45,104 nucleotides of DNA, taken from positions 1 to 45,104 of the forward strand of contig CATKHK010000156.1 of the NCBI GenBank assembly GCA_949751835.1, read 5' to 3'. A program made the translations under genes and the position numbers. The notes beneath the pieces are model-generated. The model made no database searches. It was not told the origin of the DNA and was given only the letters and a program-made list of their open reading frames with translations. Source of the DNA: Blepharisma japonicum. Its lineage: Eukaryota > Ciliophora > Heterotrichea > Heterotrichida > Blepharismidae. Of the stretch, positions 2 through 37,658 are shown piece by piece (the stretch's first letter is position 1; the number at the start of each line of letters is the position of its first letter).

Positions 2-1291
2 GAGTTTATAGTCAACAAAACTTTAAGCCTAGGCATTACAATTCCACAAACATCTACAATGAATGCAACTATTTGCCAAATTCAACTCAAAAAAGAAAGG
101 GAAAAAAATGAACAGCTTGAAAAGGAGCTATTTGAATATAGAAAAGAGAACATGGCTCAAAAAAACGAAATTGAGTTGCTTAGAGCAGAAATAGCTCGCT
201 TAAAGGGAATAATAAATGAGAATAAAAAAGGCTGCAAAAATCTCGAAAACTTAAAAGAAGAAATAAACTCAAAAATGGAAAATGAGATCGATCAAATTCA
301 TTCTCAAATAATCGATGTAAATCAAGATCTCAAAAAAATCAATTTTATAAACCCTCAAAATCTACTTAAAGAATTAAAAGACAAGAGATTAGAAATTTTA
401 AATAAACCAAATGACCCAGAATTAGAAAAAGAATTTAGGGAAAATTGCCCAATCTACCAAAGCCATACCTGCATTAACAACCCACCTATTCAGCAAGCAT
501 AAAGATTATAACATTGCTTACTGTCAAAACACATCACTTTATAGTATTATTAAAGGATATAATAACAATACTAAATTGCTTATTTATGATACAGAAAGAG
601 AAAGTGAAGAAGTCAGAGTGTTAGAGACTCCTGAACCATTAGACCATGCCGCATGTATAGCTCAACTGCCTTTCGGAAATTTATTTTGTTTTGGTAGTAG
701 AAGCTCTATTTCTGGCATTTGCTTGATAATTGATGAGAATTATAGAATTCAACATCTGCCATCTGGAACTCCATGCTATTTTTCATCATCTATCTATTTC
801 AATAATAGTGTTTATTGCTTTGGAGGTACAATAAGGATGCTTTAACTCTATCAGAGAGATTTGATTTGAATAAAGAGAAATGGATTAAGTTAAAGCCACT
901 GCCGCAAGCTGATTGCAGCTGCATGAATATAATATTTAATGGAAATATTTTGATTTCTGGATACAATAATAAAAATCTTTTGCGATATTCAATTGTTAGC
1001 AACACTTTCGTGACAATTCCTTATGATTTTGCAGAATGGAAAAGTAAAATCTTAATAAAGTCAGAGAGATTATATTTAATTGAATGTGGTAAGGATGGAT
1101 CAGTTTATGAAAGTGAAGCTTCAAATGACTCTGTCTGGAGAAGGATTGGAGATTCAACTATAGATTATAATTTTGATCAAGTATATCTCATATACAACAA
1201 AGGAGCAATAAACATTGCACACAATTATCACGGTGGCATTAATTACTTCAAATTTAATTTGAAAGAAAAGGCATTAGAGCGGCTAGTTTAA
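2..1291 (+). pseudogene. Kelch-like coiled-coil gene, 5' truncated by window edge and frameshifted
   Basis: The reading frame is open to the left edge, so the true start lies outside the window; an internal Met is at 59. The first ~145 residues are a Lys/Glu-rich coiled coil. The rest is a kelch-like domain with the hallmarks LFCFGS, YCFGG and ILISGY seen in the paralogs at 2458-4218 and 40788-41822. The frame moves from phase 2 to phase 0 near 446-460 and back to phase 2 near 815-835, so three pieces (59-~455, ~455-~815, ~815-1291) must be joined to match the paralogs. No GT...AG segment of suitable size explains either shift. It is therefore a pseudogene or carries two single-base assembly errors. 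It converges with the intact relative on the minus strand. Confidence 0.75.
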
Positions 1292-2457
1292 AGTAAGTGG
1301 CTTAATGCATAGTTCTCTTTTAATACTCTTCGGCTATTAATTTTAAAAATTATATCATTGATCAATATAGTTTATATAGACATACACTTACATAGCCAAA
1401 ACTAGGGCTGCAAATTCCTATAGAATATTATTAATAGATCTGCTGCTTGAAATTGACAATTCTCTCCTGCTCAATTACTCAACTGAAATCATCTTGCTAA
1501 TTCCAATAATTTTTGATGATATATTTTAGGCTTTTTGAATGTTCATTGGTCTTATAAGCATTGATTTTGAAATGTAAATTTTACGAAAAATAACACTTGT
1601 ATTATAAGCATAATTTTATTAATTAAATAATTACAGAAATCTATGAATGACAAGCTATTTTCAAAATTAAATTTTGGAATTTGCCTCAAATCCACTTTTA
1701 TGTTATTTTTGGTTGCAGATTCCCAATCTGTAGCATTTCCTCTGATAGTGCCTTCGATCTAGAAATTTTAAGCATGATTCTTCTCTCCGAGGTATGCGAT
1801 GCTATGCAGTTAATTGGGTAAGTTCAGGAGTTACTCATCGCTTTCTTATAAATTGTTATAGAGTAATTGATAGTTGTTGCATGAAGATATAATCCTTTTG
1901 AGCATTTGAGCAATACAATTTATTAATAAAAATTTAATTTGGCCTTTAGGCCATCAAAGACAATTCTAATTCTGATGATTGCTTGGGCTTAGATACTTTC
2001 AAATTCACTGTTTGGATTATGGGCATAGGAATCTAGCAAACTCCTTCATATAGGTGTTTTGGAAATTATGGACTTAAAGTGGACTGGATACTTCATATCC
2101 AAGAAGCTTGGTATGTCTAACGCTATTATTTAATTATAAGTTTAAGCCTATCAGTTTCGACATATAAATTTATTTTAATTTCTCAAGATAGATTTTAAAT
2201 CTATATGCAACTTAATTTGTTAAGATATCTCTATTTTATTATTAATTAAGATTTAAACGCTTTTTATTTTAGAAGCTTTACGGGCTGCATATCATTTCTT
2301 TAACACATGCGGTGCCAGTTCGAAGTTATATACTCTCATTTCTTATCCAAAATCAATTTAAACATCAAAATTAAGAATTAAATATTAATTCCATAGACAA
2401 AGGTTTATTTTTATTTAAAGTTTAGATTTTTAATAATAATTAAATATAAAGATATTA
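1292..2457. other. Intergenic space between convergent kelch-like genes
   Basis: About 1.2 kb between two 3' ends. I find no long open frame in any phase with TGA read as Trp. The part from about 1720 to 2110 is slightly less AT-rich and has short open stretches that match nothing I recognise. Confidence 0.5.
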
Positions 2458-4218
2458 TCAAAACCCTAATTGTTCTTCGATAATTTTGCTTTGTAGATTA
2501 AACTTATAGTACTTCTCAGCAGGCAGAGTTGCAATGTTTATTTCTCCTTTGTTATATGAACAATAAACTTGCCAATAATCCAAATTTTCAATAGCAGAAT
2601 ATGCTATTGGATTCCATACTTTCTCATTTTTAATTTCACTTTCATAGATCCTCCCACCACATTCAACTACATAGAGCCTTCCTTCAGCATTTATTAAAAT
2701 TTTTCTTGTTTCTGAAGCAAATTGATACTGAATTTGAGTAAAAGAATTTTTATCAATTGAATAGCTTAAAAGATTCTTGCTTAAAAATCCTGAAACCAAT
2801 ATGTTCCTTTTAATCACAACACAATGACATTTGTAATCAGCGGGTCTCATTTCCTTCAGTGATATTCATTCCTTCGTCTTAAGATCAAATCGCTCTGATA
2901 GATTTAAATACATTTTGCTAAGTCCTCCAAAGCAATAGATGCTGCCATTGAAATATATAGCAGATGAAAAAGAGCAAGGTGGTCCACTGGGAAGTATCTG
3001 AGTTTTGTAATCTCTGTCAATAATCAAAGTAATACCAGAGGGAGGGTAATTTCCAAAACAGAATAAATCGCCTGACTGGAGTTGAGTAATACAAGTTCCT
3101 AATGCTATGTTTTCTCTTGTATTGAGTGTTTTTCTTTCTTTTAGGCCGTTTTCAGTGTCTAAAGTAAATAAAATGGAAGAGTCAACGAGGTAAAGAGATG
3201 ATTTTTGGTGGTAAGCGTTGAAATACTCTTGAAATGCATGTGCTAGAATTGGTTTGGATTTTCTGATCTCTATTAACTCATTCTTGTTAAATGGACAATA
3301 TTTTCTAAAATCTTGCATTGATTCGATGTTGTTTTCTCCATGTAAAAGCGAAGATGTTTTTTCTTTTAAAATTTGCAATAGAAGGTCTGTTTGTATCTCA
3401 ATAATTAATTGATCTACTTTTTCATTAATTTCAGTATTTAAGCTAAAAGTGTTCTGAATCTGAGAATTAATCAAGTTGATTTCATTATATCTGTTGAGCT
3501 CTAAAAGCCTCCACTCTTCAAGCTCTCTTTCATTTTTTTCTATCATAGTTTTAAGGTTCAAAATTGAATCCTTTACCATCTCAATCTCATCAAATACATC
3601 CTTATTTGGTCTGATAAAGTTTTCGTGCCTTTCAAGTGTTTTTTCTATATTCACTAGTCTTTTTTCTAGACAAGCCTTAATTTTCTCTTCAATGAAATAT
3701 TCTGCCATTTTCTCCATTTCTTCACTGAACCCACAAAAATATTTAAGACTCTTATAAGAATCTGATTTAATTGGAATCATCTCTTTGGTATCTTTAATGG
3801 CTTCTTCAGGGCTTAAAGCTAACAGTGTTAAAATTCGGTCTGCATCCTCTTTTATTTTTCTTCCAGCTTTATCTATTTTTTCTGAAAAATCACTCAGTTC
3901 TTCCAAATTTTCCTTTAGTTTATTGACATGGCTTAGAGTTTCATTTTCTGAATTTCTTATATGTTTGCTTAAAGAGGCCATTGCATTACTAATCAAATTT
4001 TCGATTTTAGATTTCTTTTTTCCAAGAAATTTAAGGACTGCTTCTTTTGTCTCTGCGTTTGGTTCTAAAAAAATAGGCTCGAAAGCATGAGCTCTATTAG
4101 GTAATCTACTATGCTTATTCCAGTGTTTTGCACAGGAGTAAGTAAAAGGCGAAGTGCATTTGCAGGCATATTCAATTTCTTCCATGCACATTCGCTCAAA
4201 ACACCTAGCATTCTCCAT
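2458..4218 (-). CDS. B-box-like zinc finger, coiled-coil and kelch-like protein (586 aa)
   Basis: This is one continuous frame from ATG at 4218 to the stop at 2458 when the TGA at 2863-2865 is read as Trp. Residues ~6-45 hold a Cys/His cluster (CxxxxC, CxC, C..H...H) like a B-box zinc finger. Residues ~55-300 are a long Lys/Glu coiled coil. The C-terminal half has kelch-type motifs (LFCFGNYPPSG, YCFGGLSKMYLNLSERFDL, ILVSGF). The order zinc finger, coiled coil, beta-propeller-like domain resembles TRIM-like or kelch adaptor proteins without a RING. A role in protein binding or ubiquitin targeting is inference. It is the intact counterpart of the frameshifted gene at 2-1291, and no introns are needed. 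Confidence 0.85.
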
Positions 4219-5372
4219 AATTTCTAAATTTATAGAAGGAATTCTTTTATGCTAGAGAAATTATGAGATTTCAATAAATTTTAGAAATTTCTGGAAAATG
4301 ACGTAAGCTCATTCCTTTCGGAGACAGAAATTGAAGTAATCCTCATAATCAGGAAAGCAATACAAATGATAAGATAGATGAATTTTTTATGTCAAATTTC
4401 ATTCATCTAGTCTTATTAAGGAAGGCAGTCAACAATGTTTAATTAGTATTTCTCCGGCGCAGAATAATTAAATTTGTGATGATATTAATACACAAAGAAA
4501 ACTCTTTGAATGACTGAAGCTCATTTAAAATAAGAAATCTTTGAGCAGGATCCAAATATTTTGTCATATCCTTCCTTGGCTGAAAAGAAAAGTCATTATA
4601 ATGACAACTTGAGAGAGATAAATTAATACAGATTTTTATAAAATTTTTTTCTGCAAAAGTGAATTAGAGCATGATTAACCTGGTATATTTATGCAGCAAG
4701 CTCAAGAGATCTGCTAAAGCCCAGTAGATCAGAAGTCATTTTTTTCATCATTAAAAATAGAGCATAATTTCAAAGCTAAACTTCTAATTGTCCTTATTTT
4801 TAATCTGACTTTTTTAGTAAAATAATAAAAAATCATTAATTTCATGTTTGCATACAATTTATGAAAGTTAAAACAATTTCTGCTAACTATTTTGGCTAGA
4901 TTTTAGCCAAAAATGAGCGCTAATTATGCAGTGATTTAAACAAAATGCATAAATTGTAGGATAAATGACTTTTTTCTCTATTTTATGGAACAAGTGCTGA
5001 TCTTACAAGCTGAATAAGGTATACATCAAATTTAATTTTTGCTATTTAGAAGAAGAGCTAAGAAATTCCAATAAATTCTCAGTTTTTGCTTGAGAGTATA
5101 AATATGAAATCAAGATATTAAGCTCACAGCCAAAATAACTTGGATCATAGATCACTATTTTGAGTATTGATAGTTGAAGCAGTATAAATTTATTTTAAAT
5201 ATTAGTGATATATAAATAAATTATATAACTTTTCATTTACACCTAGGGGTAAGAAGAGAAATTGAAGAGAATTAATCCATAGATTTATTTATTAAAAGCA
5301 GAAGGGGATGTTAATACTTGAAAAATATTTAAAGCAGATAATTGTCTAATTATAAAGGTATTAAATTATGAA
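4219..5372. other. Intergenic, no gene seen
   Basis: About 1.15 kb of AT-rich sequence between two minus-strand genes. Both strands are closed by frequent TAA/TAG even with TGA as Trp. I see no RNA gene or repeat. Confidence 0.5.
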
Positions 5373-9127: not shown

Positions 9128-11701
9128 TTAGCTCAACTCTAATTTAAAATTCGTCACATATTCATCAAGAAAGGCTTTGCACTTTATTTCAAGTGTATTG
9201 TCATAATCCTTTTTGCACATATCAATTAATAATGATATATTTTTAATGTAATCATAATGCTCAACATTTTTTTCTCTGCAAAGTTTTGTGTATTCTCAGA
9301 GATAACGCTTTTGGTTAAGTGTATCATTCATAAGTCAGTATAGATCAGCTAGATCAGAAATTATATATAAAATATTGTGAATATTATAATTTACATTTGA
9401 AACAATATCTAATGCTTTTAATAAGTATAATTCAGATTCCTTGAACTTCTTCATGCATTTATAATTCAAACCCAAACATAAATAAACTCTATCCCTATCA
9501 ACAAAAGTTTTAAAGTGCGTGTCTATTATTACCTCAGCTTTTTTTAGGAAAATTTCTGCATTTTCAAAATGCTTTCTTTTATAATATATTTGGCCAAATA
9601 AGAAATAAAAGAATATATAAGTATATGGGCTAGCTTTATTATTCAAAAAAACTAAATTAGACTTCAGATAGTCCATAATTTGGTTAGACTTCACATAATT
9701 ATTCTGAATTTCATAGATTTCTAATAGAAAAGCATGAATGAAGAGTATTGGAATATTATTTTGGCTATTTCTCCTCTTTTCAATAGCTTTTAAGCAAATT
9801 TCTTCACATAATTCATACTGATTTTGCATACTAATGCATAAAATAACAACTTTTGCAATATTTTCTAGGCTTAAATTAGCATGATATTGGGAATTTTGGA
9901 GACATTCAATAATGTTTAATATGTAAATCTTAAAATTTTCAGTATTTCCTATCTTGTAATACAGCTCTGCGATATAGTAATTAAGCGAGATCATCTCGTT
10001 TATATTATATAAACTAGCAAATTTCTTTGTGCTACGCATATATAAAAGATGTTGAAAAATTTCCAAAGGCTTGCTGGTTTCTCCTATATAGTATAAAACC
10101 TTACCAATATTATATTCAATGCTCAAATACAAGAAATTCTCAAATTCACCTATTTTTAATAGTAATTCTTTTGCTAGGGAGAAATATTTTAATGACTCTT
10201 CCAGCCAACCTCTTGACAAATTTATTTCTCCCAAAGTTGTGTTCATCTGCACAGAAAATAAATCATCGAAAAAGGATTGTGTCTTCATAATTTCTTTAGC
10301 CCTGTAAATATATTTAACAGCTTCTTTATGATTTTTTTTCATAAAAAATATTTTTCCAAAATAATAATTGATATAGCTTGCAAGGTAATCGTCAGTAAAT
10401 TTTGTAACCTTCATCTCTTTTTCAGCTATTGTTAAAGCTTTTAGCGCATTTTTATAGTCATGATTGAAATAATAAAGCATCCCATAATAAGCCATTATTC
10501 AAAGGCCTCCCGCAAGTGAGCTTGGCTTATGCTTTTTATAAAGACTGGCAAATTTATAAGAAAATCTCTTGACTTTCTCAATTTGTTTAGTAGAAAAGCA
10601 AAACTCTATCAACTCAATAAGAGTGGTAAAAGCACCTAAAAGTTTATGCTCATCATTTGTAGTCAATTTATTTTTTTTCACAAAAATATGATAGGCTTTA
10701 ATTTTGTATTTTTCATATTTTTCAATATTTCCCTCAAGTGAATAAAATTTAGATATATCCGAATAAGCTCTATGCACAAAACCAAGGTTATAGTCGTGAG
10801 CTGGGTTTTTAAGAGCTTTAATCAGGATCTTTGAGCATTTCACAAAATATTTTCTAAAGCCTAATAAGAAAAAGATTCATTGAAAAACAAAATAAAAGCA
10901 CCAAAAAAACATAGTTGCATGACTGACCTTTTTGCAATTTTTTTGGGCTTTTTTTCATAGAGATAAGTTAACATTAAAGTTTTTAGTAATAAGATAAGTT
11001 AAGTAATGTTGAACCACTTCAATTAAATCTTTTATGATGGTTTGAAACCTTCTAAAACATACTAAGAAATCTTTGGAATTACTTAAAAACTCATATGAAA
11101 TTGCGTATTGACGGCCTTTAAGGTAGTGCTGAAGCCTTTCTGCTATAAAAATTCATAAATAGTCTGGATCATTTAGCACTAAAGAAGGTTCTTTTCAGAT
11201 ATTTGTGAAATCATACCTCAAATAATTATGTAGTAAAAATCCAGATGTGTAAACTAGCATTTTGTTGTGAAATTTTGATGGATCAAAACCCTTCACATAC
11301 TTTTCTGCTAGATCTGGAGAATTCATTAGAAAATATTCAACTGGAAAATATAAAAGTTTTTTCTTCACAGTATTTGTTTTAATGAGATAATTTATCAGAT
11401 CTCTACAAGTTGAGAGAATAATTATATATTCTTCAGTTTTTAGTTTTAGCGTGTTTTGGAAACCTTTTGATATATTTTGTTTAAGATTATTAAAATGATC
11501 TAATGATTCTTGGATTAATCACTCAAAAAAATCAATTAATATTTCTTTTGATTTTTCGTTAATTCTGAAGGTAATTCTAAGTTTTGGATGTGGATTTGTT
11601 GAGTGTTCTTTTTCTCAATCTCCAATGCAAAAATTTTTGTTGCAGGGATCACAGTGATAGTAAGCATCATCTATTCCACATTCTGAGCATAAGGCCTCCA
11701 T
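9128..11701 (-). CDS. Zinc-finger (B-box-like) TPR protein, copy 1 (857 aa)
   Basis: One uninterrupted frame runs from ATG at 11701 to TAA at 9128-9130 when TGA is read as Trp (at least nine TGA codons, for example in GDW, DYLW, FQW, GGLW). Residues ~5-45 form a Cys-rich B-box-like finger (CSECG, YYHCDPCNKNFC, then D and His ligands). A helical region follows. From about residue 290 to the end are TPR-type helix pairs, many with Ala/Gly-Tyr/Phe signatures (YYGMLYYF, LYYKIGNTENF, LYLCLGLNYKCMKKFKESE). The protein is probably a scaffold that binds partners through TPRs. It is paralogous to 16791-19340 (shared RKYFVKCSK) and to the degraded copy at 31641-33766. An E2 gene lies 300 bp upstream on the same strand. 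Confidence 0.88.
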
Positions 11702-13045: not shown

Positions 13046-15682
13046 ATGGCGTCTTTAATCTCGCCTGATGGAAAATGTCTTGTCCTTACCAAATTCCAAA
13101 TCGAAGGGAAAACATCAGAAAACTTAAACGAAATTACTATTTTCCAAACCTTTATTAACCCCTCTCAAGAGGCAATAATAGAGGGTTCTTATCTTTTCCC
13201 AAAAGATTCAAATTGTGTAGTTTCCAGCTTGCAAATAAAAACTCCAACTGGGATAATAAAAGGCCAAGTACACGAAATAGAGGAATCCAAAGAAAAATAC
13301 AACGATGCTATTGCAGCGGGCAAAAAAACTTGTCTGTCTCATACAATAAGTTATGCCAGCGATTTGATAGCAATCAATGTAGGAAACATTCCGAGCGAGT
13401 CTGAGATCGAGGTTCAGATAACATTTGTGTCTGAGAGCACTTATAACAGCGAAGACAATAAATGGAAAATATATTTTCCCAATAAATTTATTGAGAGATA
13501 TCATACAGCTCAATCCTACGTCAGCTCGTCTCCTTTTCACGTGGTGCAACCAAAAGTTGACATTTATGCTTCATTTAGCATAAAATCCCATGAAAACATA
13601 AAATCAGTTGATTCAAATGTGAGCCATTTTAATGTTGAAGCCATCAATAGCAAGCATTCTATTATTTATTTGCAATTGGCTAATAATAGCGATTTAAGAG
13701 TGATCTATGAACTTGAAAAATCAAATAGTCCATGAGCATCAATTCAGCAAGACCCAAGAACTCAATTATATGGGTTCCAGCTATCGTTTATGCCTGAGCA
13801 TCCATCTGGGTTTTCTGAGTGAGAGTCTAAAGGTGAATTTGTTATTTTATTAGATAGAAGTGGGTCAATGGAGGGTTCTAATATTACTCTAGCTAAGCAA
13901 GCATTGTGTTTATTTTTAAAATCCCTCCCTGTAGACTCATACTTTAATGTTATTAGTTTTGGGTCTAAATATGACCCAATGTTTGAAACAAGCCAAAAAT
14001 ATACAGATGAAAATATTGATTGCGCTATAAATTTGATAAATAGTTTTTGAGCAGATATGGGCGGAACTGAAATTTATGAACCTCTTTGTGATGCTTTAAC
14101 TAGAAAATTAATTAGCATTGATAAACAAGGTGGCAATTTTGGAAAAAATTCTGAGTACATCAGAAGAAATGAAAGTCAAAATAGCGAAGATATCAGTCTT
14201 TATCGCCAATTTATTATCCTTATCACTGATGGAGGAGTTTCAAATGCCGATAAAATCGTCAGTATGATAAAAGAATCCAAAGGAGAAGCAATGATTAGCA
14301 CAATTGGAATCGGGCATGGAGCTTCAACTTATTTAATCAATGAAATCGCCAAAGAAGGAGGCGGCTCTTCACAGCTTATTTTGGACTCCAAAGAAATAAA
14401 TTTAGCTGTTATTTCCTCGTTGAAAGAAGCAATGATGCCTGGGTATAGTCAAATTCAATTTTTGAACCCAGAAAACTTTGAAATTTTATTCCCAAAAATG
14501 CCGTTTAAATGCCATTATGGAGAAAAAATTGCTTGCTATGGGATTATCGATGAAAATCAACCATTTCCATCAACTTTAGATATAAAGTATTTAAGCGATT
14601 TAACCAACACTGAAATGATTGTGGGGATTCCAATAAATGTAACAGAAATTGATCAAAGTTCTGCAGCTCTGGTCACAGCTGTTGGGAAATATTTTGATAC
14701 TTGCAGCAGCCAGGATCTTGTCAGGAAATCAATAAAATTTCAAGTTCTTAGCAAGGCGACAGCATTTTTAGGTGTTGAAATTGCCGTAATTAAGCATGAC
14801 AAACAAGATACTAGAGATGTCTGCCAACAAAATGTGTTTAGTAGTCAAAAATGTGGAGATGTCTTCAAAAAAAATGTGTTTAGTAGTCAAAAAAGGGATT
14901 ACAGTATGGGAATGGCAGATAGAAAAGTAGGAAAATGGCTAGGAAAAATTGGAGCAAAGAAAAGGCACAGAATGTGTATGAGAGAGAACATTCAAGGGAT
15001 TACCAAGCCTGCCATCAGAAGATTGGCAAAAAGAGGGGGTGTTAAAAGACTTTCTGGGTTAGTTTATGATGAAACAAAAAATATACTTAAAATATTTTTG
15101 GAAAATATTATAAGAGATGCCGTAACTTACACAGAGTATGCAAGAAGAAAGACTGTTAATGCATTAGATGTAGTTTATGCACTCAAAAGACAAGGAAAAA
15201 CCTTATATGGCTTTGGTGATGAGAAAAAAAGGGATATAAATTATAACGTAAAATCCAAATATAAAACGATAAAATCAGAAAGCTCTATGCTTGGCCTTTT
15301 GGGAAGCAAAAAATCACCTCAGCAGCCATTGCTTATTGGTTTTAATAACAGGAATTTACGACATGAAGAAGAAGAAAAAGAAAAAAAGACAGAAATAGTT
15401 CCTAAAGCTAAGCAAATTGAGGACTTAATAGCTCTTCAAAAAATAGATGGGCATTGGGAATTCAGCTCTGAGATTATGACGCTTATGAATAGTATTCTCA
15501 ACTTAATTGAAAATATAGAAAATGAAAGTGCTGGACTTATAACAGCGTTGATCCTTGCAATTTTCGAAGAAAAATTTAAAGAATTTGAAAATATATGATG
15601 CTTGGTAGCAGCAAAGTCGAAGAAATGGCTAAAGAAAAGCGGATTTCAAGAAGTTCACTTGGCTGATTTGGGATACTTCTAA
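13046..15682 (+). CDS. VIT-VWA domain protein with an in-frame histone H4 (878 aa)
   Basis: One frame from ATG 13046 to TAA 15680-15682 includes four TGA-Trp codons. Residues ~1-130 form a VIT domain ([18 protein letters not shown]). Residues ~262-460 are a VWA domain with a complete MIDAS: D270-x-S272-x-S274, T341 in GGTEI, D395 in LITDGG. Residues 623-724 are a full-length histone H4 starting at its own Met ([11 protein letters not shown]) and ending at TLYGFG, with no stop or gap in the globular part. By my hand count, ~78% of the last 82 residues are identical to canonical H4. The C-terminus ([29 protein letters not shown]) resembles the tail of VWA5A-type proteins. The two paralogs at 35346 and 38217 share everything except the H4, which sits in their variable Ser/Lys linker. 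Confidence 0.93.
14829..14892 (+). repeat. 42-bp (14-codon) tandem duplication just before the H4 segment
   Basis: The 22-bp word beginning AAAATGTGTTTAG occurs at 14829-14850 and again at 14871-14892, giving NVFSSQK twice in the protein. It lies in the linker 20 bp upstream of the H4 start codon. The paralogs have a single FSSKK-type motif in the equivalent linker. Confidence 0.85.
14912..15217 (+). other. Embedded full-length histone H4 segment
   Basis: The segment encodes residues 623-724 of the VIT-VWA protein. It begins with ATG and a basic tail ([14 protein letters not shown]), then DNA-contact and histone-fold stretches nearly identical to canonical H4: [52 protein letters not shown]. 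Most changes are conservative (I/V, K/R, E/D, M/L). The position of Lys20 is Met. The final canonical Gly is replaced by Asp, where the frame runs into the host linker. No intron, stop or frameshift occurs in it. Confidence 0.95.
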
Positions 15683-16790: not shown

Positions 16791-19340
16791 CTATATTCTT
16801 GTATCAAAATGCACTTTAATCTTATCACCATTTTTACCATTTCCAATGTCTAAAGTAAACTCCAGTCCAGGAAGATTTTCTTTATAATACTCCCTAAGAT
16901 GCAAATAACACTCTTTTGCAGTGCTTTCATCATTGAGCTTTATGCAATGATAAAGCAGCAAAGCTCCAACTTTTAAATAACAAGCGTAAATTTTCTTTTC
17001 TTCGCAAAGCCTAATAAATTCTCAATGGTAGTGCTTCTGCCTAGGAAAATCGTTTTTCAATAAATACAAATATCCAAGATAAAAATAAATTTTTAAAATT
17101 CCAGTGGTTCAGAAAAAATTATTTATATAAATATCCAAAGCTTTCAGTAAGTAGCTCTCAGATTCCTCGAGTCTCTCCAAACTAAAATAATTTGAACCCA
17201 ATCATAAATAAACATCTGCTTTTTTATCAACATAAGTTCTTAAGTATCTCTCTAATATCTCCTCAGCTTTCTTAAAGTATATCTCTGCTTCCTCAAAATT
17301 ATTTCTACAATGAAATAGTTCACCAATATGAATCAGCACATTTAATTGATGATTCCAACCTTCTTTATTATTAAAGTGAACTAAATTCAATTTTAAATAC
17401 TCCAAAACTGAATCAGCTTTTTTATAGTCTTCTTGGTACTCGTAATTTCTCAAAAGACACAAATTTATCGCGAGCATAACATTTTTATTTTGATTTTCTT
17501 TGCAATCTAAGCACTTACGACAAACTTCTTCACATAATTTATATTTTTTTTGTTTAATGAGTGCCTCATTAATAAATTGAATACAAGATCCAGATCATGA
17601 ATATGAGCCCTCATAAGATTCGAATAATTTTATCGAATTTTCTATATGATAATTAGTTTTTTCAATATTTCCAAATCCATAATGTATCATAGATAATATA
17701 GTGTGAATTATGATCAGAGCGCTAGTACTTGTTTTAATTGAGCTTTCATATAAGCATGTTTCAAGAATCGTTAAAGCTCTAGTGTAGTCGCCTTTACCAA
17801 AGTATGTTCTTCCAATATGATAATCTATACATCGTAGCCATATATTGTTTTCTCCTAAATTTGTTAATGACTCTTTTGCAAGATTATAATATTTAAGTGA
17901 TTCATCATATCAATGCTGATTAGAGTATATGTGCCCCAAAGTTATATTCATCTCGACAACAACCTCATTATCTTTGGTTAATCTTTTTTCGAAAATTTCT
18001 TTTGCTTTGTAAATTTCTTTGGTAGCAGCTTGGTAATTGTCCTTTTCAATGAATATTTTCCCAAGATAAAAATGTATATAGCCCATTAAGAAATTATCGA
18101 TAAGTTTTGTTTTTTTCGATAAAATAATTAATTTTTTAAATAAATCTAATGCAAAATCATATTTTTCACATTTGAGCATCGCCCTTCCTATAAAGAAACA
18201 AGAAAGAGTCATTGTTTTAGCTGAAATTTGTCCATATTTTTTTAAAAAACGCTTAAATTTGGCATATAAGGCATTACAATTGTCATATAATTTTCAGAGA
18301 ATTTTGAAAGCAAAAATAGTGTTGGATTCATTATTAATGATCAAATTGCCATGCTTTACAAGAGCGTGATAAGATTTAAATAAATATTTTTGGCATTTTT
18401 CGATATTCCATTCATCAAGATAATAGCAGGAAATTTTATCATAAATATAACTGAGGAAAGTAGAATGATTTCTCCCTAGTTGTAGCAAAGACTTTGAGCA
18501 CTTTACAAAATATTTCCTATTCTTCAAAATATGAAAAATACGCTGAAAAGCTATGTAAAAAATAATTAAATAGTATTTATAATCTTTTTTACTTATCTCA
18601 TTTTCAACCTTATCTCACAAAGTTAAATCAACATTGAAATCTTGATCAATAAGATTAGCAATAAAGTTTTGAATAATTGTAATTTCATCGTGTATCTCAA
18701 GTTCAAATCAACTTAAATAGAGTGAAAACTCTCGCAGATTATTTAAAAACTCATAAGCTAGCTTATATCGACGATATTTGAGGTATTCATCTAATATTTC
18801 TGAAATAAGAGGATTAAAATATTTGCTTGCTGGATCAAATGATAGCCCATAAAGAATTTTGGAGTCTAAATGAAAATAATTATACATGAAAAAATTATAG
18901 AAATATAAAAAAGAATTTTGAAAATGAAAACTTTTTGCGTATTTCTCTGCTAGAATTTCAGGATTGATTAGAAAATATTCAATTGGAATATATAAAATTT
19001 TTTTCTTTACATATTTGATTTTCATAAGATAAGTAATAGTTACATTACAGAGTGAGGAAATTCAGCTAGTCTTGATATTTATTCTTAATGTTTTTGGGTA
19101 ATTTTTAATAATTTTTTGCTTAAAATGATTGAAATCGTTTGAGAGCTCATCCTTTATTGATTCGAAAAGATCAATAAGTATTTTTCTAGATTTTTCGTTA
19201 ATTGGTAAGATGATCTTTAGTTTTTGATGAGAATTTTTATAATGTACTTTATCCCAGTCATCTATACAAAATTTTTTATTGCAGGAATTGCATTGATAGT
19301 AAGCATCATATACTCCACAGTCTGCGCATAAAGCATCCAT
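16791..19340 (-). CDS. Zinc-finger (B-box-like) TPR protein, copy 2 (849 aa)
   Basis: One continuous frame from ATG 19340 to TAG 16791-16793 with nine TGA-Trp codons (for example TSW, LYLSW, LTLWD, QHW, YLW). The N-terminus has CADCGVYDAYYQCNSCNKKFC followed by acidic and His ligands, a B-box-like zinc finger at residues ~5-40. A Phe/Tyr-rich helical region follows. From about residue 370 on there are TPR-type repeats (GYIHFYLGKIFIEKDNYQAA, HIGELFHCRNNFEEAEIYF). It uses UAG as its stop, showing that UAG is not reassigned. A decayed E2 fragment lies immediately upstream, mirroring the E2-TPR arrangement at 9128-12448. Confidence 0.88.
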
Positions 19341-19931: not shown

Positions 19932-22900
19932 TTATTTTTCTTCAAAATATTTTCCAATTTTTTGGTTTGTTTCTCCTACAGCTTTCATTAAAATGTCCAG
20001 TTTTTCATTATTCTTTCTTTGATTGGCATTTATTTTTTTTTTTAATTTTTCAATCTTCTTCTGGAAAATATCAGACTTCATTTCTGATATTTCTTCATTG
20101 CAGATCTGAAAATAATGCACATCTTGAATTTTTCTTCTCCAAAGAAGAATGCTTTCTAATTCTATTATCATTCCTGTGAGCTCTTTAAATTCAGCAATAT
20201 CTTTTTCTTCTTCAACTCTGCTAAAAGTATCTCCTATAATTGAAATGAGTAAGTTTAGCATAATAATAGGATTAATCATAGTGGCTAAGAAAAAACAGAT
20301 CCATTGAGCCAAATTCATCCCATCAGTTTCAAAGTCTCCAATATCAATTCTATAAGAAATCTCCAAATAATTTAGAATTGGGGTATCATTTTTATCAAGC
20401 ACTTGAAAAATAAATGCAAATGCCACTGTTGAATACAAAAGCAAAATCGCAAATGATTTCATATCTTTTACCACCTCTGCAAGCAAATTTACGATATATC
20501 TTGTATCTTCAAATAGTCTAAACAGTGTAATTCCTCTTAGTCAGATAACTACTACTAATAAAAATAAAATATTATATTCGATTGTAGGTTCAATTCTACT
20601 TCATATGAGCCCTGCGTATAATCATGCTATAAATGCTTGAATGGCGTCTATAATATTTCACTTATCTCTTATATATTGTGAAGGTGACACATAAAATTGG
20701 TATAATTCATATATAGAGAGAATAGTGCTTAGTAGTAAAACTAAGCCAAAAATATTATTATCACGTGGATAAGTTATTGCATAGTTTGATAATGCTAATA
20801 GATACAGCAAATAAACGAAACCTTGCAACTGCATCATCCATTTTAGATAAGACCATTTATAGTCCAAAATTTCTTGCACACATTCTGTCGTAAAAATTTT
20901 ATCGTTTTTTGAATCGTTTAAGCTCCGTAAAAAATCTAAACTGGCCTGGCTGCCTGCAGCTAGTCCTAGAGGTATTATAGTGTGTCTGAAATTAATAGGT
21001 TTTCCTTCATCTTTCTTTTGATCACCTGGCAGAAATTTTGAATCATCAATTACTAATTGTTTTGAATATTGAATAATTGGCAACATTTGATTTTCATCAC
21101 AAAATTTCTGTCCTCTTTCATATTTCCGGAAAATTGCATTATATAGTTTAGGAAGCATAGGATGTCCAGATAAATTTAGCCTTGAAATAATATCAGTATC
21201 TAAATATGCCAATGAAAACGGATTGTTTTTCGCTATTTTATCAAGCGATTTTATTATAAAGCCAATGCAGTGTGTATAGCGTTTTGATAAGGCCAAAGAT
21301 AAAGGATTTTCATTAAAAGATGTAGAAATTAATGGGATTCCATTATGCAGCGCAGCTTTTAAATGCAAAGGATAATTAAAATACGAATAGAGATGTAAAG
21401 AATTCATTTTGTAAGGATTATAAACTCAATGATCTAACTCAGGAGTATAGCTTTTACATTTGCAGTTAATGATACTATTTATATAATTAAATATTGCATA
21501 TCTGCTAGACCCAGCTGGTATATCAATTCCTGTAATATTCATAGGATTAGAAATCAAAAAAACCCTGTTTTCTGTATTATTTGTTTCTTCAGTACCTTTG
21601 CCACAATAAGCGAAATATTTGTTGTCTTTGGACACTTGGAATTTACTTATCCTCTCACCCAATTCTTTGGAAAATATTCTAGTATAGCTATCCAGATCCC
21701 AAAAAGTTACCCTTCCTTTATCGGTAGCAGATAGAAGAGTTTTATTGTCTGATAAAACTTTAAGCTGGACAATTTCTCCAGCCCACATTTTTATGGTGTA
21801 AATCCTAACTTTTAGCTGTCAATCCCATATTTTTATAGTCCCTGCACTGCTTCCTGTAAATAATAATTTTTCATGATCAGCTTTTTTGATTTTGGTAATT
21901 TTCTGCTTATGGGCCCTAAATTCTTGGGCGAGATCAGGCTTTTCTTTGCTATTGTCCCAGTATTCTATAAACCCATTAGCTGAGCCTGCTACAATTTCAT
22001 GAGATTTTATAAAAAACTCAATTGAACGTATATGGCCATGGTTTCCTTTTAAGTCTTTTACAACAGTCATTGTGCTCACATCCCACAAAAAAACATGAGA
22101 AGAACTCCCTGCAGAAACAAATATTTTTTTATTAGGAGATAACCGCAAATAAGTAATTGTATCAGCTTTACCTCCAATAACTTTTACTGATGTTGTTTCT
22201 TTGGTGACTAAATTTACTTTTTTTATGCAGTCTTGCTGATAAAGAACGATCACATCTTCAGAGACTACAATATAAAGAAAATTATATCAAAGATCATCAG
22301 AAAATTTTTCTAGCTCGACTAAAGTAAACTTTTAGATGATAAATGGCTTGCTGATATATGCTTCTTATCTGAAAAAAGGTTTCATTTTCAAAAGGCTTGA
22401 TTTTCATATATAATCATGCTATTCCCTGAAATATTATTGCAAAACGTTCTTGCCATTTGAGATTGGATTTTTGGAAATTCTGGATATTTCAGCTCAGAAA
22501 ATCTCCCTTCTTGTCCACAGGTAAAAATTAATTTGTCATCATTACTTAAAGCCATAAACCATACTCTCTTCTTATGAACTTTAATTTCATCTAGCTTACT
22601 ATCAGAATCTAGTCTCCAGAATGACAAATAACCTTTATGAGCTATAACAAGTGAAAGCTCATCTTTAGTCATACAAATCGGGCCTATGTTAATTCCTTCA
22701 GGTAAGCTTAAATTGATTTCTTTTTCAATAGCCAGAGTGTTTCTGTTAAATATAAGAGCAGACTTTAGGCATTTCATTATAATTTTTGAGCCTTGAGGAG
22801 AAAAATTAATAGAAACACAATTTTGATTGATCTCTATCTCATATTTTAGTATTCCTTTGCAAGAATATAAGGATAACTTCCCTTCTTTTTTAAATACGAC

Positions 22901-24032: not shown

Positions 24033-27000
24033 TTATTTTTCTTCAAAATATTTTCCAATTTTTTGGTTTGTTTCTCCTACAGCTTTCATTAAAATGTCCA
24101 GTTTTTCATTAACTATACCAATCGTATCATCATTTTTTCTTTGATTGGCATTTATTATTTTTTTTAATTTTTCAATCTTCTTCTGGAAAATATCAGACTT
24201 CTCTTCTGATATTTCTTCATTGCAGATCTGAAAATAATGCACATCTTGGATTTTCCTTCTCCAAAGAAGTATGCTTTCTAATTCTATTATCATTCCTGTG
24301 AGCTCTTTAAATTCTGCTATGTCTCTTTCTTCTTCAACTCTTCTAAAAGTATTCCCTATAATCGAAATGAGTAAGTTTAGCATAATAATAGGATTAATCA
24401 TAGTGGCTAAGAAAAAACAGACCCATTGAGCCAAATTCATCCCATCTGTTTCAAAGTCTCCAATATCAATTCTATAAGAAAGCGTCAAATAATTTGAAAA
24501 TGGGGTATCTTTTTTATCAAGCACTAGAAAAATAAATGCAAATGCCACTGTTGAATACAAAAGCAAAATCACAAAAGATTTCATATCTTTAGCCACCTCT
24601 GCAAGCAAATTCACCATATATCTTGTATCTTCAAATAGTCTAAACAGAGTAATTCCTCTTAGCCAGGAAACAATTACTAATAAGAATAAAATATTATATT
24701 CGATTGTAGGTTCAATTCTACTTCATATGAGCCCTGCGTATGCTCATGTTATAAGAGCTTGAGCAGCGTCTATAATATTTCACTTATCTCTTATATATTG
24801 TAAAGGAGACACACAAAATTGATATATTTCATAAACAGTCAGAATAGTGCTTAGTAATAAAACCAAGCTAAAAATATTATTATCACGTGGATAAGTTATT
24901 GCATAGTTTGATAATGCTAATAGATACAGCAAATAAACTAAACCTTGCAACTGCATCATCCATTTTAGATAAGACCATTTATATTCCAAAATTTCTTGCA
25001 CACATTCTGTCGTAAAAATTTTATCGTTTTTTGAATCGTTTAAGCTCCGTAAAAAATGCAAGCTTGCCTGGCTGCCTGCAGCTAGACCTAGAGGTATTAT
25101 AGTGTGTCTGAAATTAATAGGCTTTCCTTCATCTTTCTTTTGATCACCTGGCAGAAATTCTGAATCATCAATTACTAATTGTTTTGAATATTGAATAATT
25201 GGCAAGATTTGATTTTCATCACAAAATTTCTGTCCTCTTTCATATTTCCGGAAAATTGCATTATATAGTTTAGGAAGTAAAGGATGTCCAGATAAATTTA
25301 GCTTTGAAATAATATCAGTATCTAAATATGCCAATGAAAAAGGATTGTTTTTCGCGATTTTATCAAGCGATCTTATGATAAAGCTGATGCAGTGTGTATA
25401 ACGCTTTGACAAGGCTAAAGATAAAGGATTTTCATTAAAAGATGTAGAAATTAATGGGATTCCATTCTGCAGTGCAGCATTTAAATGCAAAGGATAATTA
25501 AAACATGAATAAAGATGCAAAGAATTCAATTTGTAAGGATTATAAACTCAATGATCTAACTCAGGAGCATAGCTTTTGCATTTGCAGTTAATGATACTAT
25601 TTATATAATTAAAAATTGCATATCTGCTAGACCCAGTTGGTATATCAATTCCTGTAATATTCATAGGATTAGAAATCAAAAAAATTTTGTTTTCTGTATT
25701 ATTTGTTTCTTCAGTGCTTTTGCTACAATAAGCGAAATATTTGTTGTCTTTTGACACCAGGAATTTGCTAACCCTCAATCCTAGTTCTTTGGAAAAAATT
25801 TCAGTGTAGCTATCCAGATCCCAAAAAGTTACCCTCCCTTTATCAGTAGCAGATAGAAGAGTTTTATTATCTGACAAAACTGTAAGCTGGACAATTTCTC
25901 CAGCCCACATTTTTATGGTATAAATCCTGACTTTTAGCTGCCAATCTCATATTTTTATAGTCCCTGCACTGCTTCCTGTGAATAATAATTTTTCATGATT
26001 AGCTTTCTTGATTTTGGTAATTTTCTGCTTATGGGCCTTAAATTCTTGGGCGAGGTCAGGCTTTTCTTTACTATTGTCCCAGTATTCTATAAACCCATTA
26101 GCTGAGCCTGCTACAATTTCATGAGATTTCATAAAAAATTCAATTGAACGTATATGGCCATGGTTTCCTTTTAAGTCTTTTAAAACAGTCATTGTGCTCA
26201 CATTCCACAAAAATATATGTGAAGAACTCCCTGCAGAAGCGAGTATTTTTTTATTAGGAGATAATCGCAAATAAGTAATCGTATCAGCTTTACCTCCAAT
26301 AACTTTTACTGATGTTGTTTCTTTAGTGATTAAATTTAACTTTTTTAAGCAGTTTTGCAGATAAAGCACTATTACATCTTCAGAGACTACAATATAACGA
26401 AAATTATACCAAAGGTCGTCAGGAAATTTTTCTAGCTCAACTAAAGTATCTGAAAAAAGGTTTCATTTTCAAAAGGCTTGATTTGCATATATAATCATGC
26501 TATTCCCTGAAATATTATAGCAAAACGTCCTTGCGGTTTGAGAATGGATTTTTGGAAATTCCGGGTATTTCAGCTCAGAAAACCTCCCTTCTTGTCCACA
26601 GGTAAAAATTAATTTGTCATCATTACTAAGAGCCATAAACCATACTCTCTTCTTATGAACTTTAATTTCATCTAATTTAATATCAGAATCTAAGCTCCAG
26701 AATGATATATAACCTTTATGAGCTATAACAAGTGAAAGCTCATCTTTAGTCATACAAATCGGGCCTATGTTAATTCCTTCAGGTAAGCTTAAATTGATTT
26801 CTTTTTCAATAGCCAAAGTGTTTCTGTTAAATATAAGAGCAGATTTTAGACATTTCATTATAATTTTTGAGCCTTGAGGAGAAAAATTAATAGAAACACA
26901 ATTTTGATCGCTCTTTATCTCATATTTTAGTATTCCCCTCCAAGAAAATAAAGATAATTTCCCTTCTTTTTTAAATACGACTAATTCTCCATTTGAAGCT

Positions 27001-27557
27001 ACATCAAAAGCACAAAATTCACCTTTGATAAAATCCTTGATAACTCTAAGATCTCTCGTTTTAATTTTAATGATTTTATCCTCTAAATGAGCATAAATTT
27101 TCGATTTATCTTGATTTATTTTTAAGCTCAAAATTTCACTGTTAAAGCTGATTTTATCATTTTCCTCACAAGAAAGTGAAGGAATTTTTACTAAATAGAT
27201 AGAATTGTTGCTAGAAAAAATTGCAAAATCTTCTTTGGGAAAAGTAATAGCATGGTTTAAGGAATATGCAATTTTTCTTTCAATAAAAGTTTTATTAGTG
27301 ATATCAAAATAAAGAGCATAGCCACGAGAAGTGCCTGCTATATAGTGTGTTCCATTGGATAGCTGAGCCATTGTTTGAATTCGATGATGGCAACTGCTAT
27401 AAGAAGGAAAGGTCTTCTTCAACGTTTGTTGCAGTTCATTTACTACATCTTTCATTTTCCCAGCTCCAAGCTCATTGTTTTCTAGGGAAAAGTTTTTGAT
27501 GTTGAATTCTATTGTTTGAGATATCATTGGGATCAGAAGCTGTTGGTTTTCGATCAT
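24033..27557 (-). CDS. WD40-repeat TRP-like ion channel, copy B (1174 aa)
   Basis: A single frame runs from ATG 27557 to TAA 24033 with at least seven TGA-Trp codons. Residues 1 to ~600 form WD40-type repeats (probably a beta-propeller or two), about 677-770 are ankyrin-like, and hydrophobic segments lie near 866-885, 895-915, 930-985, 993-1011 and 1046-1070. The last has the TRP-channel S6 look (IIMLNLLISIIGNTF), followed by an EEE/coiled-coil tail (ELTGMIIELESILLWRRK). It is likely a plasma-membrane or ciliary cation channel with a cytosolic propeller; selectivity cannot be read. It is highly similar to copy A along its whole length, with a 7-residue insertion near the C-terminus. Confidence 0.88.
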
Positions 27558-34721: not shown

Positions 34722-34945
34722 TTAAACTATATCCCAAATCAACTAAACAAACTTCTTGAAATCCGCTTTTCTTCAGCCATTTCTTTGACTTAACTGATAT
34801 AAAGGATCATATATTTTCATACTCTTTAAATTTTTCCTTGAAAATCGTAAGGATCAATGTTATTATAGACCCAGAATTTTCATTTTTAATATTTTTCTTT
34901 GATTTGATAATACTCTGAAAAGATTTTTACCTGAGAACGGTATAT
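34722..34945 (-). pseudogene. Relic of the 3' end of a VIT-VWA gene
   Basis: The plus-strand sequence from ATCCCAAATCAACTAAAC to about 34945 matches the last ~200 bp of the genes at 35346-37658 and 38217-40526 (C-terminal segments [12 protein letters not shown] and [15 protein letters not shown]), with several substitutions and indels. The rest of the gene is gone, replaced by the next spacer copy. Confidence 0.75.
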
Positions 34946-35345: not shown

Positions 35346-37658
35346 TTAATTGTATCCCAAATCAACCAAATGAACTTCTTGAAATCCACTTTTCTTAAGC
35401 CATTTCTTTGACTTAGCCGCTACCAAGCATCATATATTTTCAAACTCTTTGAATTTTTCCTCAAAAATCGCAAGGATCAATGCCGTTATAAGCCCAGCAC
35501 TTTCATTTTCTATATTTTTCTTTGAATTGAGAATTCTTTTCACAAGAATCTTTATCTCAGAACTACATTCCCAATGCCCATCAATTTTTTGAAAGGCTAT
35601 TAAGTCCTCGATTTGTTTAGCTTTAGGCTCTATTTCTGTTTTTTCTTTTTCTTCTACTTCTTCTTCTTCTTCTTGATGTGATAATTCACTGCAACAATAA
35701 TTAACACTACGCTCTTTAGGTGATTTTTCGCGCTTTTTGCTACTAAAACTACTAGAGCCTCTTGATTTTTCCATTTTTACAAAAGAGCCTTTATCGTATA
35801 ACTTTTTATGCTCAATATTGAAATCTATATTCCCAGATTTTGGTCTGCTAGACTTTATTACTGCATTTTCAACACCTAAAAATGCTGTTGCCTTACTCAG
35901 AACTTGGAATTTTATTGATTTACTCACAAGATCATGACTCTTACAAGTATCAAAATATTTTCCGACAGCTGTCACCAGCGCTGCAGAATTTTGATCGATT
36001 TCTGTCTCATTTATTGGAATTTCCACAATCATTTCAGTATTGGTTAAATTGCTTACATATTTTACCTCGAATGCCGACGGAAATGGTTGATTTTCATCGA
36101 TAACTCCATAACAAGCAATTTTTTCTCCATAATGACATTTAAATGGCATTTTTGGTGATAAAATTTCAAAGATTTTTGGGTTAAGAAATTGAATTTGACT
36201 GTACCCAGGCATCAATGCTCCTTTTAATGAAGAGATAACAGCTGGCTTTATTTCTTTTGAGTCCAAAATAAGCTGTGAAGAGCCACCTCCCGCCCTGGCG
36301 ACTTCATTAATTAAGTAAGTTGAAGCACCATCACCGATTCCAATTGTACTAATCATTGCTTTTCCTTTAGATTGTTTTATCATACTGACAATTTCATCAG
36401 TATTTGAAACTCCTCCATCAGTGATAAGTATAATATATTGGCTATAAAGGCTTATGTCATCTTTATTTGCTTGTTTTGTAATAGCATTTTTGCTTTTATT
36501 GCATCTAAAGTACTTAAAAATTTTTTCAAAAAAGCCCTTCTTTTCAATAAAGCCCTTCTTTTCAATGTTGTCCGGGTGTGGTTTTTTCTTTAAACTTCTA
36601 GTTAAAGCATCACAAAGAGGTCCATAAATTTCGGTTCCTCCCATATCTGCTCCAAACCTATTGATCAAATTGATGGCGTAATCAATATTTTCATCTGTAT
36701 ATTTTTGGCTTTTTTCGAACATTGGATCATATTCAGAACCAAAACTAACAATATTAAAATATGAGTCCTCGGGGAGGGATTTTAAAAATAAGCATAGCGC
36801 CTTCTTGGCCAGTGTAATATTAGACTGACTGCTCATTGACTTACTTCTATCTAATAAAATAATAAATTCGCCTTTCGACTCTCACTCAGAAATATCAGCT
36901 TCAGTTGGGTGCTCTGGCGTAAAGGACAGCTGAAACCCATATAATTGGGTTCTTGGGTCTTGCTGTATTGATGCTCATGGACTATCTGAGTTTTCAAGCT
37001 CATAGGTCACTCTTAAATCGCTATTATTGGCAAATTTCAAAGAAATAATAGAATGTTTGCTATTGATGGCTTCTACATTAAAGTCACTCACATTTGAAGA
37101 TACTGAGCATATATTCTCGTGGGATTTTATAATAAATGAAGCACAAATTTCAACTTCTGGCTGCACTACTTTAATAGATGAATCATCATAGTGTTGGGTC
37201 TTATTATATCTTTGAATAAATTTGTTAGGAAAATAGATTTTCCATATATTGTCTTCGCTCCTATAAGTGCTCTCAGAGACTAACGTTATTTGAACTTCTA
37301 CCTCAAACTCACTCGGGATGTTTCCTACATAGATTGCCATCAAATCACTGGCATAGCTTACCGTATGAGATAGAAACGTTTTTTGGCCTGCTGCAATAGC
37401 GTCGTTGTATTTTTCTTTAGATTCCTCTATTTCGTGGACTTGGCCTTTTATAATTCCAGTTGGAGTTTTTATTTGCAAGCTAGAAATTATACAATTTGAG
37501 TCTTTTGGGTAAAGATAAGAACCCTCGATTATCTCTTGAGAAGAATTAACAAAGGTTTGGAAAATAGTAATTTCATTTAAGTTTTCTGACGTTTTCCCTT
37601 CGATGGAGAATTTGGTAAGAACAAGATATTTTCCATCAGGTGATATTAGTGATGCCAT
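35346..37658 (-). CDS. VIT-VWA domain protein, array copy 1 (770 aa)
   Basis: ATG 37658 to TAA 35346-35348 in one frame with several TGA-Trp codons. Residues 1-130 are a VIT domain. The VWA domain spans ~262-480 with an intact MIDAS: D270-R-S272-K-S274, T342 (GGTEI), D414 (LITDGG). A Ser/Lys linker and an acidic run (EEEEEVEEKEKTE) lead to the C-terminal LQKIDGHWE...[16 protein letters not shown] module, which resembles VWA5A-type proteins. There is no signal peptide, so it is likely intracellular; a role in metal-dependent protein binding follows from the family. The VWA insert contains a short repeat (EKKGFIEKKGFFEK) absent from copy 2. The proteins are very similar, indicating recent duplication. 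Confidence 0.9.

Follow-up and report, generated by a model that had tools for sequence, protein, structure and literature searches.

The window analysed here, the whole 45,104-nucleotide stretch of Blepharisma japonicum DNA (contig CATKHK010000156.1), holds a gene on the forward strand in which a histone H4 is embedded within the linker of a VIT-VWA protein, together with two VIT-VWA paralogs on the opposite strand that lack the histone. The features on which the argument depends are listed below; C1, C7, C48, C52 and similar labels denote other loci in the same genome, P0001 the fusion protein and P0001-P0003 the VIT-VWA proteins of the window.

13046..15682, forward: fusion gene, an intact 878-aa ORF with TGA read as Trp (4 TGA codons)
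13085..13426, forward: VIT domain (PF08487, E 4.6e-20)
13835..14374, forward: VWA domain (PF13768, E 1.3e-17)
14801..14905, forward: 5' linker of the fusion gene, containing a 23-base direct repeat
14906..15217, forward: captured H4 coding sequence, from the likely donor start codon to the last Gly, with the stop codon lost; nearest copy, the C52 H4 gene
14906..14983, forward: N-terminal tail of the H4 (codons 1-26), with mostly radical amino-acid changes at 10 of the 25 codons after Met
14984..15217, forward: histone-fold core of the H4, 78 residues, of which 9 are altered, all with BLOSUM62 of at least 0, no stop
15218..15403, forward: 3' linker of the fusion gene
15404..15679, forward: C-terminal domain like the MVP-binding (INT) region of PARP4, a weak match
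35346..37658, reverse: paralog without histone, 770 aa
38217..40526, reverse: paralog without histone, 769 aa

Translation, Pfam and reading give the order of parts in the fusion ORF as VIT, VWA, beta region, linker with H4 and INT-like C-terminal domain, and the VWA DxSxS motif (DRSGS) is intact by reading. The UGA=Trp code and the A+T content agree with Blepharisma as given for B. stoltei in PMC9942806. The H4 segment (MADRKVG...TLYGFG) occupies residues 623-724 of the 878-aa protein, corresponding to 14912-15217, which coincides exactly with the whole in-frame H4 of the original prediction, and the two paralogs lack the segment, as had also been claimed. With two upstream residues included, the segment matches a canonical H4 sequence in 77 of 105 aligned columns, all of the best 60 of 102 PDB matches to the fusion protein are histone H4 (best E 2.8e-45), and by sequence the H4 histone fold is complete. 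The conserved H4 N-terminal tail is not kept, 10 of its 25 residues differing from the C52 gene. No relatives of P0001 were found in viral and prokaryote sequence collections.

Since the segment is embedded in the 878-aa ORF and its stop codon is lost, the gene yields no free-standing histone of about 103 aa. This bears on the suggestion that a separate H4 variant is made from the internal Met (14906/14912), by way of an internal promoter or start site, and that its being in frame with the host ORF is accidental; although the donor start codon and about 9 upstream bases were carried along, such a product would keep the 3' linker and all of the tail domain, so that a free H4 is impossible, and we consider the suggestion extremely improbable. 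An intron at the H4 junctions was likewise considered and rejected: stretches of 15-16 nt with GT..AG ends lie at 14904, 14927 and 15216, but 14 such stretches are listed over the gene.

Elsewhere in the window, a stray VIT-VWA tail fragment (34726-34917, reverse; 67% to paralog P2) lies beside the paralogs and is perhaps a decayed copy. Two large proteins with WD40 repeats and an Ion_trans channel domain are encoded at 24033-27557 and 19932-22070 (both reverse), and the other neighbours, at 9128-11701, 16791-19340 and 2455-4218 (all reverse) and 29114-30580 (forward), comprise two TPR proteins, an aspartyl protease and a Kelch protein.

Source and age of the H4 insert

A genome search revealed seven H4 genes elsewhere with 77-82% protein identity to the fusion H4, and two further H4 matches, both on C7 and both degenerate; the dN/dS comparison covered seven of these nine matches, the two C7 pieces being dropped. 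The nearest gene is the H4 on C52, which over 79 codons shows 9 synonymous and 9 non-synonymous differences (dS 0.17, dN 0.052). The H4 genes on C1, C37, C43 and C2 lie at dS 0.40-1.40 from the fusion H4, and for the variant H4 genes on C10 and C23 dS is saturated. The donor was therefore probably the genome's own C52 gene.

Homology between fusion and C52 extends from about 9 bases 5' of the ATG to the last Gly codon and excludes the stop. Because the nearest canonical H4 proteins begin with MGG, the donor start codon is most likely the Met two codons upstream of 14912, that is at 14906; the segment originally proposed to begin at its own Met thus stands, with its start shifted by these two codons. 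The letters upstream read GATTAC in the fusion, GATTAT in the C52 5' leader and GATTAC in the linker of paralog P3, and since both the P3 linker and the donor leader carry them, the 5' breakpoint probably falls within this short common stretch. For the same reason the DYS..G motif, which had been taken as the upstream linker flank, is ambiguous: its letters occur in the P3 linker, as claimed, but also in the donor leader. Just 5' of the insert, a 23-base direct repeat starts at 14829 and 14871 (window 14829-14893).

Both flanks of the insert run on collinearly into paralog sequence. The host gene differs from the window paralogs by dS 0.52, with dN/dS of 0.18-0.19 outside the linker. Because the H4 segment differs from C52 by a dS of just 0.17, the capture is probably younger than the paralog split, given comparable synonymous rates. 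That one paralog received an H4 coding sequence by insertion, as first proposed, is thus upheld, and the event gains a probable donor and a relative date. The original prediction had reserved the case of an assembly chimera, to which a haplotype artefact may be added; the fusion is indeed single-copy in one assembly, but its core is 92% (219/237 bases) identical to the nearest genomic copy and not about 100%, both flanks are collinear with paralog sequence and the frame is intact, leaving such an artefact with hardly any probability. Core histones are normally among the most constrained free proteins. The locus offers a recent capture of a whole core histone into another gene, in which donor, breakpoints and branch-specific substitutions can be read.

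Selection on the H4 segment and the passenger question

Changes in the H4 segment were polarised with four other H4 genes, five H4 genes being used for this purpose, which placed 30 changes on the fusion branch over 104 codons and none clearly on the C52 branch, 7 being ambiguous. The 78 codons of the core carry 14 fusion-branch changes and 4 ambiguous silent ones. The nine amino-acid changes among them (three R>K, four V>I, one H>Y and one T>N, with no stop) are, in the usual H4 numbering, R39K, R55K, V57I, V60I, V65I, V66I, H75Y, T82N and R95K. In the spectrum of the 18 core changes there are 8 G>A and 6 C>T, and the conservative appearance of the changes is in part due to this mutation bias, which favours changes of that kind.

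Neutral simulations were run mainly with the four ambiguous core changes assigned to the fusion branch, and in a separate run with these excluded. For 18 changes, so few amino-acid changes without a stop have a marginal P of 0.016-0.098, and when stops are ignored the amino-acid count alone has P 0.069-0.171; with the four silent changes excluded (14 changes) the count is not unusual (P 0.26-0.33). That all core changes are conservative and none is a stop has P at most 0.004 with 18 changes and 0.0005-0.010 with 14, although this test was picked after the changes were seen, its highest P values coming from runs with the observed mutation spectrum. The tail is altered more than the core (10/25 versus 9/78 residues, Fisher P 0.003).

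Taken together, there is moderate evidence that the H4 fold is under constraint, which depends partly on where the four silent changes are placed, whereas the N-terminal tail, on this comparison, is scrambled and bears no signs of being kept. The original claim of selection rather than decay therefore holds moderately for the fold, where all changes are conservative without a stop and the core differs from the tail, and does not hold for the tail; the dN/dS comparison with the cell's own H4 genes that had been proposed gives dN 0.052 and dS 0.17 to C52. Against the claim stand the mutation bias and an amino-acid count that is marginal with 18 changes and unremarkable with 14.

These figures also bear on the view that the H4 is a recent passenger, captured by chance in a tolerant, fast-evolving linker and not yet lost, with no histone function there. 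The insert is young (dS 0.17), linker length varies from 19 to 376 aa over the family, linker dN/dS among the window genes is 0.5-1.2, close to free evolution, and the H4 tail is already scrambled; the surplus of conservative changes is partly a product of G>A/C>T mutation, and the amino-acid count without a stop has a neutral P of 0.016-0.098 with 18 changes and of 0.26-0.33 with 14. A passenger would nevertheless sit poorly with nine core changes that are all conservative and include no stop (by the post hoc test, P no higher than 0.004 for 18 changes and 0.010 for 14), with the difference between core and tail (P 0.003), and with a conserved H3 fold in the same linker of three relatives, described below. 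On balance, a passenger is possible but doubtful.

Histone folds and linkers across the VIT-VWA family

Genome-wide, 56 family-matching pieces were found, and those within 18 ORFs or ORF pieces were used. Left out were C6:367277-368230, C6:372767-373102, C6:373518-373796, C6:373892-374161, C4:554942-555325, pieces on C194, C84 (two) and C34, C66:63889 and the window fragment 34726-34917, while C48:210858-211832 was read and left uncounted. A search for the Histone family gave 49 matches in the genome; three of these have an open frame that reaches 400 aa or more, and they are exactly the VIT-VWA genes C48, C94 and C7. The window H4 is absent from the matches, and the search seems to close its open frames at TGA, so that a further histone fusion may be hidden from it.

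The VIT-VWA proteins of C7, C48 and C94 each carry an H3-type fold, according to reading, Pfam and genome search, with a PDB search on the C48 fold only; H2A was entertained as the class of these folds and was ruled out by reading, the PDB search (C48 fold) and the genome search. Four VIT-VWA proteins among the 18 family ORFs or ORF pieces thus bear a linker histone fold, one H4 and three H3-type, and in all four the fold lies in the same linker, which follows the beta region and precedes the C-terminal domain. The C48 fold is 49-51% identical to nine genome H3 genes over 94 residues, these identities coming from the genome search, since the canonical H3 genes have no pairwise scores in the regional comparison of C48 and C94. 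In that comparison the H3 fold has dN 0.148 and dS 1.30 (ratio 0.11), the lowest dN and the lowest ratio of five regions, the dN/dS values of the others being 0.272/1.18 for the VIT-VWA core, 0.434/1.01 for the linker before the fold, 0.281/0.96 for the linker after it and 0.182/0.96 for the tail.

A tree of 17 rows, from which C48:209659-210969 was excluded and which carries a long-branch warning for C7, C106, C48:215295 and C66, unites C7, C48, C94, C66 and C48:215295 in one clade (100/99) and places the window genes in a separate clade (100/100) adjoining the C6 genes (87/91). No histone match at E 1 was found in C66 and C48:215295, both members of the H3 clade; to judge from these two, the fold is dispensable in some members. 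Because the fusion and the H3 carriers sit in different clades, the tree suggests an old H3 gain, before the C7 split, followed by loss in C66 and C48:215295 (several gains being a less simple account), and a recent H4 gain separate from it. A chance figure of 3e-13, based on the gene count of the B. stoltei paper and 19 VIT matches, was set aside as evidence.

Several features of the family linkers are recorded here in their own right. In the C7 H3-bearing protein (C7:341500-347500, ORF 1129-4347), residues 581-640 contain six [GSA][LI]F[GA] repeats, GLFG-like as in FG nucleoporins, for which Pfam Nucleoporin_FG gives E 0.23. The C106 VIT-VWA protein (C106:44500-50500; record 48158-48298) has SYSPTSP heptads in its linker, like the RNA polymerase II CTD, and their sole other match in the genome is at C65:164169, in a frame named RPB1-like by reading that has its own CTD repeats. 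Both the GLFG and the CTD-heptad matches are low-complexity. The cluster on C48 holds histone-bearing and histone-less VIT-VWA members, and a third VIT-VWA gene there (C48:209659-211832, within C48:208500-218000) is split in two frames and has no histone match in the Histone-family search or in the genome search with the C48 fold.

Linker composition is relevant to a chromatin or histone-chaperone role that does not involve vaults, in which nuclear VIT-VWA proteins would dock on H3-H4 or nucleosomes and the tail would serve otherwise. The linkers of the H3 clade (C7, C48, C94, C66 and C48:215295) have a K+R fraction of 0.20-0.29 and are basic, with KRGRxK/AT-hook-like stretches by reading, and the six nucleoporin-like repeats of C7, despite their Pfam E of only 0.23, and the resemblance of the C106 heptads to the RPB1-like frame on C65 point the same way. 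Such a role does not account for the position of the fold, which has a PARP4-like front before it and an INT-like tail behind it, and the linkers of the two histone-less window paralogs (K+R 0.22 and 0.15, D+E 0.23 and 0.19) have no notable net basic charge. We regard it as rather unlikely, though with the passenger reading of the H4 it is one of the two main alternatives. That one expanded family has several different nuclear-type modules (H3, H4, GLFG and CTD heptads) in the same linker has also been weighed as a sign of a decoy, in which displayed modules would bind factors of nuclear parasites or viruses; the H3 fold, however, shows no arms-race sign, having the lowest dN of five regions, and the GLFG and CTD matches are low-complexity, which makes a decoy very unlikely.

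PARP4, vaults and a possible role for the histone folds

The best PDB match of the C18 family member is human PARP4, residues 619-1184 (E 2.1e-37), with inter-alpha-trypsin inhibitor heavy chains reaching 1e-13 at best; PARP4 is the closest solved relative for the C18 member only, the best 60 of 102 matches of P0001 all being H4 chains. A profile of the family tail (A1), built from 13 of the 17 family ORFs with a tail, C48:215295 having none, has as its only PDB match up to E=10 a 28-residue stretch of PARP4 (1574-1601, E=1), weak alone, and the window protein's tail by itself gave no PARP4 match in the PDB search. According to PMC5665922, INT comprises residues 1563-1724 of vault PARP and binds the major vault protein (MVP) on the luminal side, and cargo fused N-terminal of INT is packed into vaults. 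The stretch 1574-1601 falls inside INT, and the weak match carries weight solely through its collinear position in PARP4, the protein to which a family member is most closely related; identity of the family's C-terminal domain with INT is thus supported but not proven. No PARP catalytic or BRCT domain was found in Pfam scans of P0001-P0003 and eight other members (11 of the 18 family ORFs), and the absence of the former is why we speak of a PARP4-like adaptor rather than a PARP. The genome contains three MVP_shoulder (MVP shoulder-domain) loci, that on C40 being an intact 830-aa MVP ORF. In this regard, a PARP4-like vault adaptor with putative vault association is the best reading of the fusion protein, and the earlier idea that the H4 might link VWA complexes to chromatin missed this closer frame, the best PDB relative of the C18 member being the vault protein PARP4, as well as the H3-bearing sisters.

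Histone folds pair with a partner, and H3 and H4 are each other's partners. We therefore propose, tentatively and with somewhat less than even confidence, that the histone-bearing proteins are vault adaptors resembling PARP4, in which the histone fold is a docking module. A VIT-VWA front, a variable linker and an INT-like C-terminal domain would form a vault adaptor devoid of the PARP catalytic domain, whose linker in the fusion gene has acquired a complete H4 coding sequence, with C52 as the likeliest source. Because histone folds pair with partners, the H4 fold would hold free H3 or the H3 fold of the sister proteins of C7, C48 and C94, and the H3-fold proteins likewise would hold H4. The INT-like tail would bind MVP, and H3-H4 pairs might thereby reach vaults or enter them, to be stored, buffered or transported. 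The histone-bearing linker lies directly N-terminal of the INT-like tail, the position of engineered vault cargo. Partner binding, vault binding and purpose go beyond the anatomy of the genes, which no more than suggests them.

A broader and more doubtful extension of the docking-module proposal is that vault-based histone handling exists in nature, with H3 and H4 folds serving as linker bait in front of an MVP-binding domain and vaults capturing, storing or ferrying H3-H4; the old H3 bait and the recent, complementary H4 bait would then form a two-sided set. Against the docking-module proposal, the H4 fusion is one recent gene, the fold is dispensable in some members of the H3 clade, and the basic linkers of that clade and the GLFG-type repeats of one of them could fit a nuclear role free of vaults. 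Vault function is said to remain elusive in PMC13100048. The separate uptake of both partner histones by vault-PARP4-like proteins points to a concrete and directly testable vault cargo, and the finding is more interesting than first noted, since the recent H4 fusion has a conserved counterpart with H3 and stands within a frame resembling PARP4. Among the open-licence PMC papers listed, none describes a fusion of a histone with a VIT-VWA protein or an adaptor between histones and vaults, which is weak evidence of novelty, most of these papers being off-topic; a Loxodes paper (PMC11441545) was rejected as a VWA lead, as its 'VWA' is part of a DOI string.

Among known systems, the C-terminal half of PARP4 is the nearest likeness, with the same succession of VIT, VWA and beta region along some 550 collinear residues (E 2.1e-37 for the C18 member) and, towards the C-terminus, the motif LQ..DGFW, which in PARP4 lies within the INT region that binds MVP; it differs in that the 11 scanned family proteins have no PARP catalytic or BRCT domain and that the linkers of four members hold a histone fold. 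Inter-alpha-trypsin inhibitor heavy chains and other VIT-VWA proteins share the succession of VIT and VWA, but the heavy chains match less well than PARP4 (E 1e-13) and give no tail-profile match, and we know of no histone in any of these proteins. The canonical H4 proteins of the genome (C52, C1, C37, C43, C2) are 81-82% identical to the fusion H4 over 103/104 residues and have the local AKKRHR and RENIQG features in common with it, whereas the fusion H4 is embedded, has lost its stop, has a scrambled N-terminal tail and carries nine conservative core changes. The canonical H3 of the genome is 49-51% identical to the C48 fold over 94 residues, in which GVKKPHRFRPG is kept, and differs from the VIT-VWA-embedded fold, which is without the ARTK tail and the RRIRGER end. 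In engineered cargo-INT fusions (PMC5665922), cargo placed N-terminal of INT is carried into the vault lumen; those fusions are man-made, whereas the arrangement described here, with a histone fold at the cargo position and putative vault binding, is a natural one.
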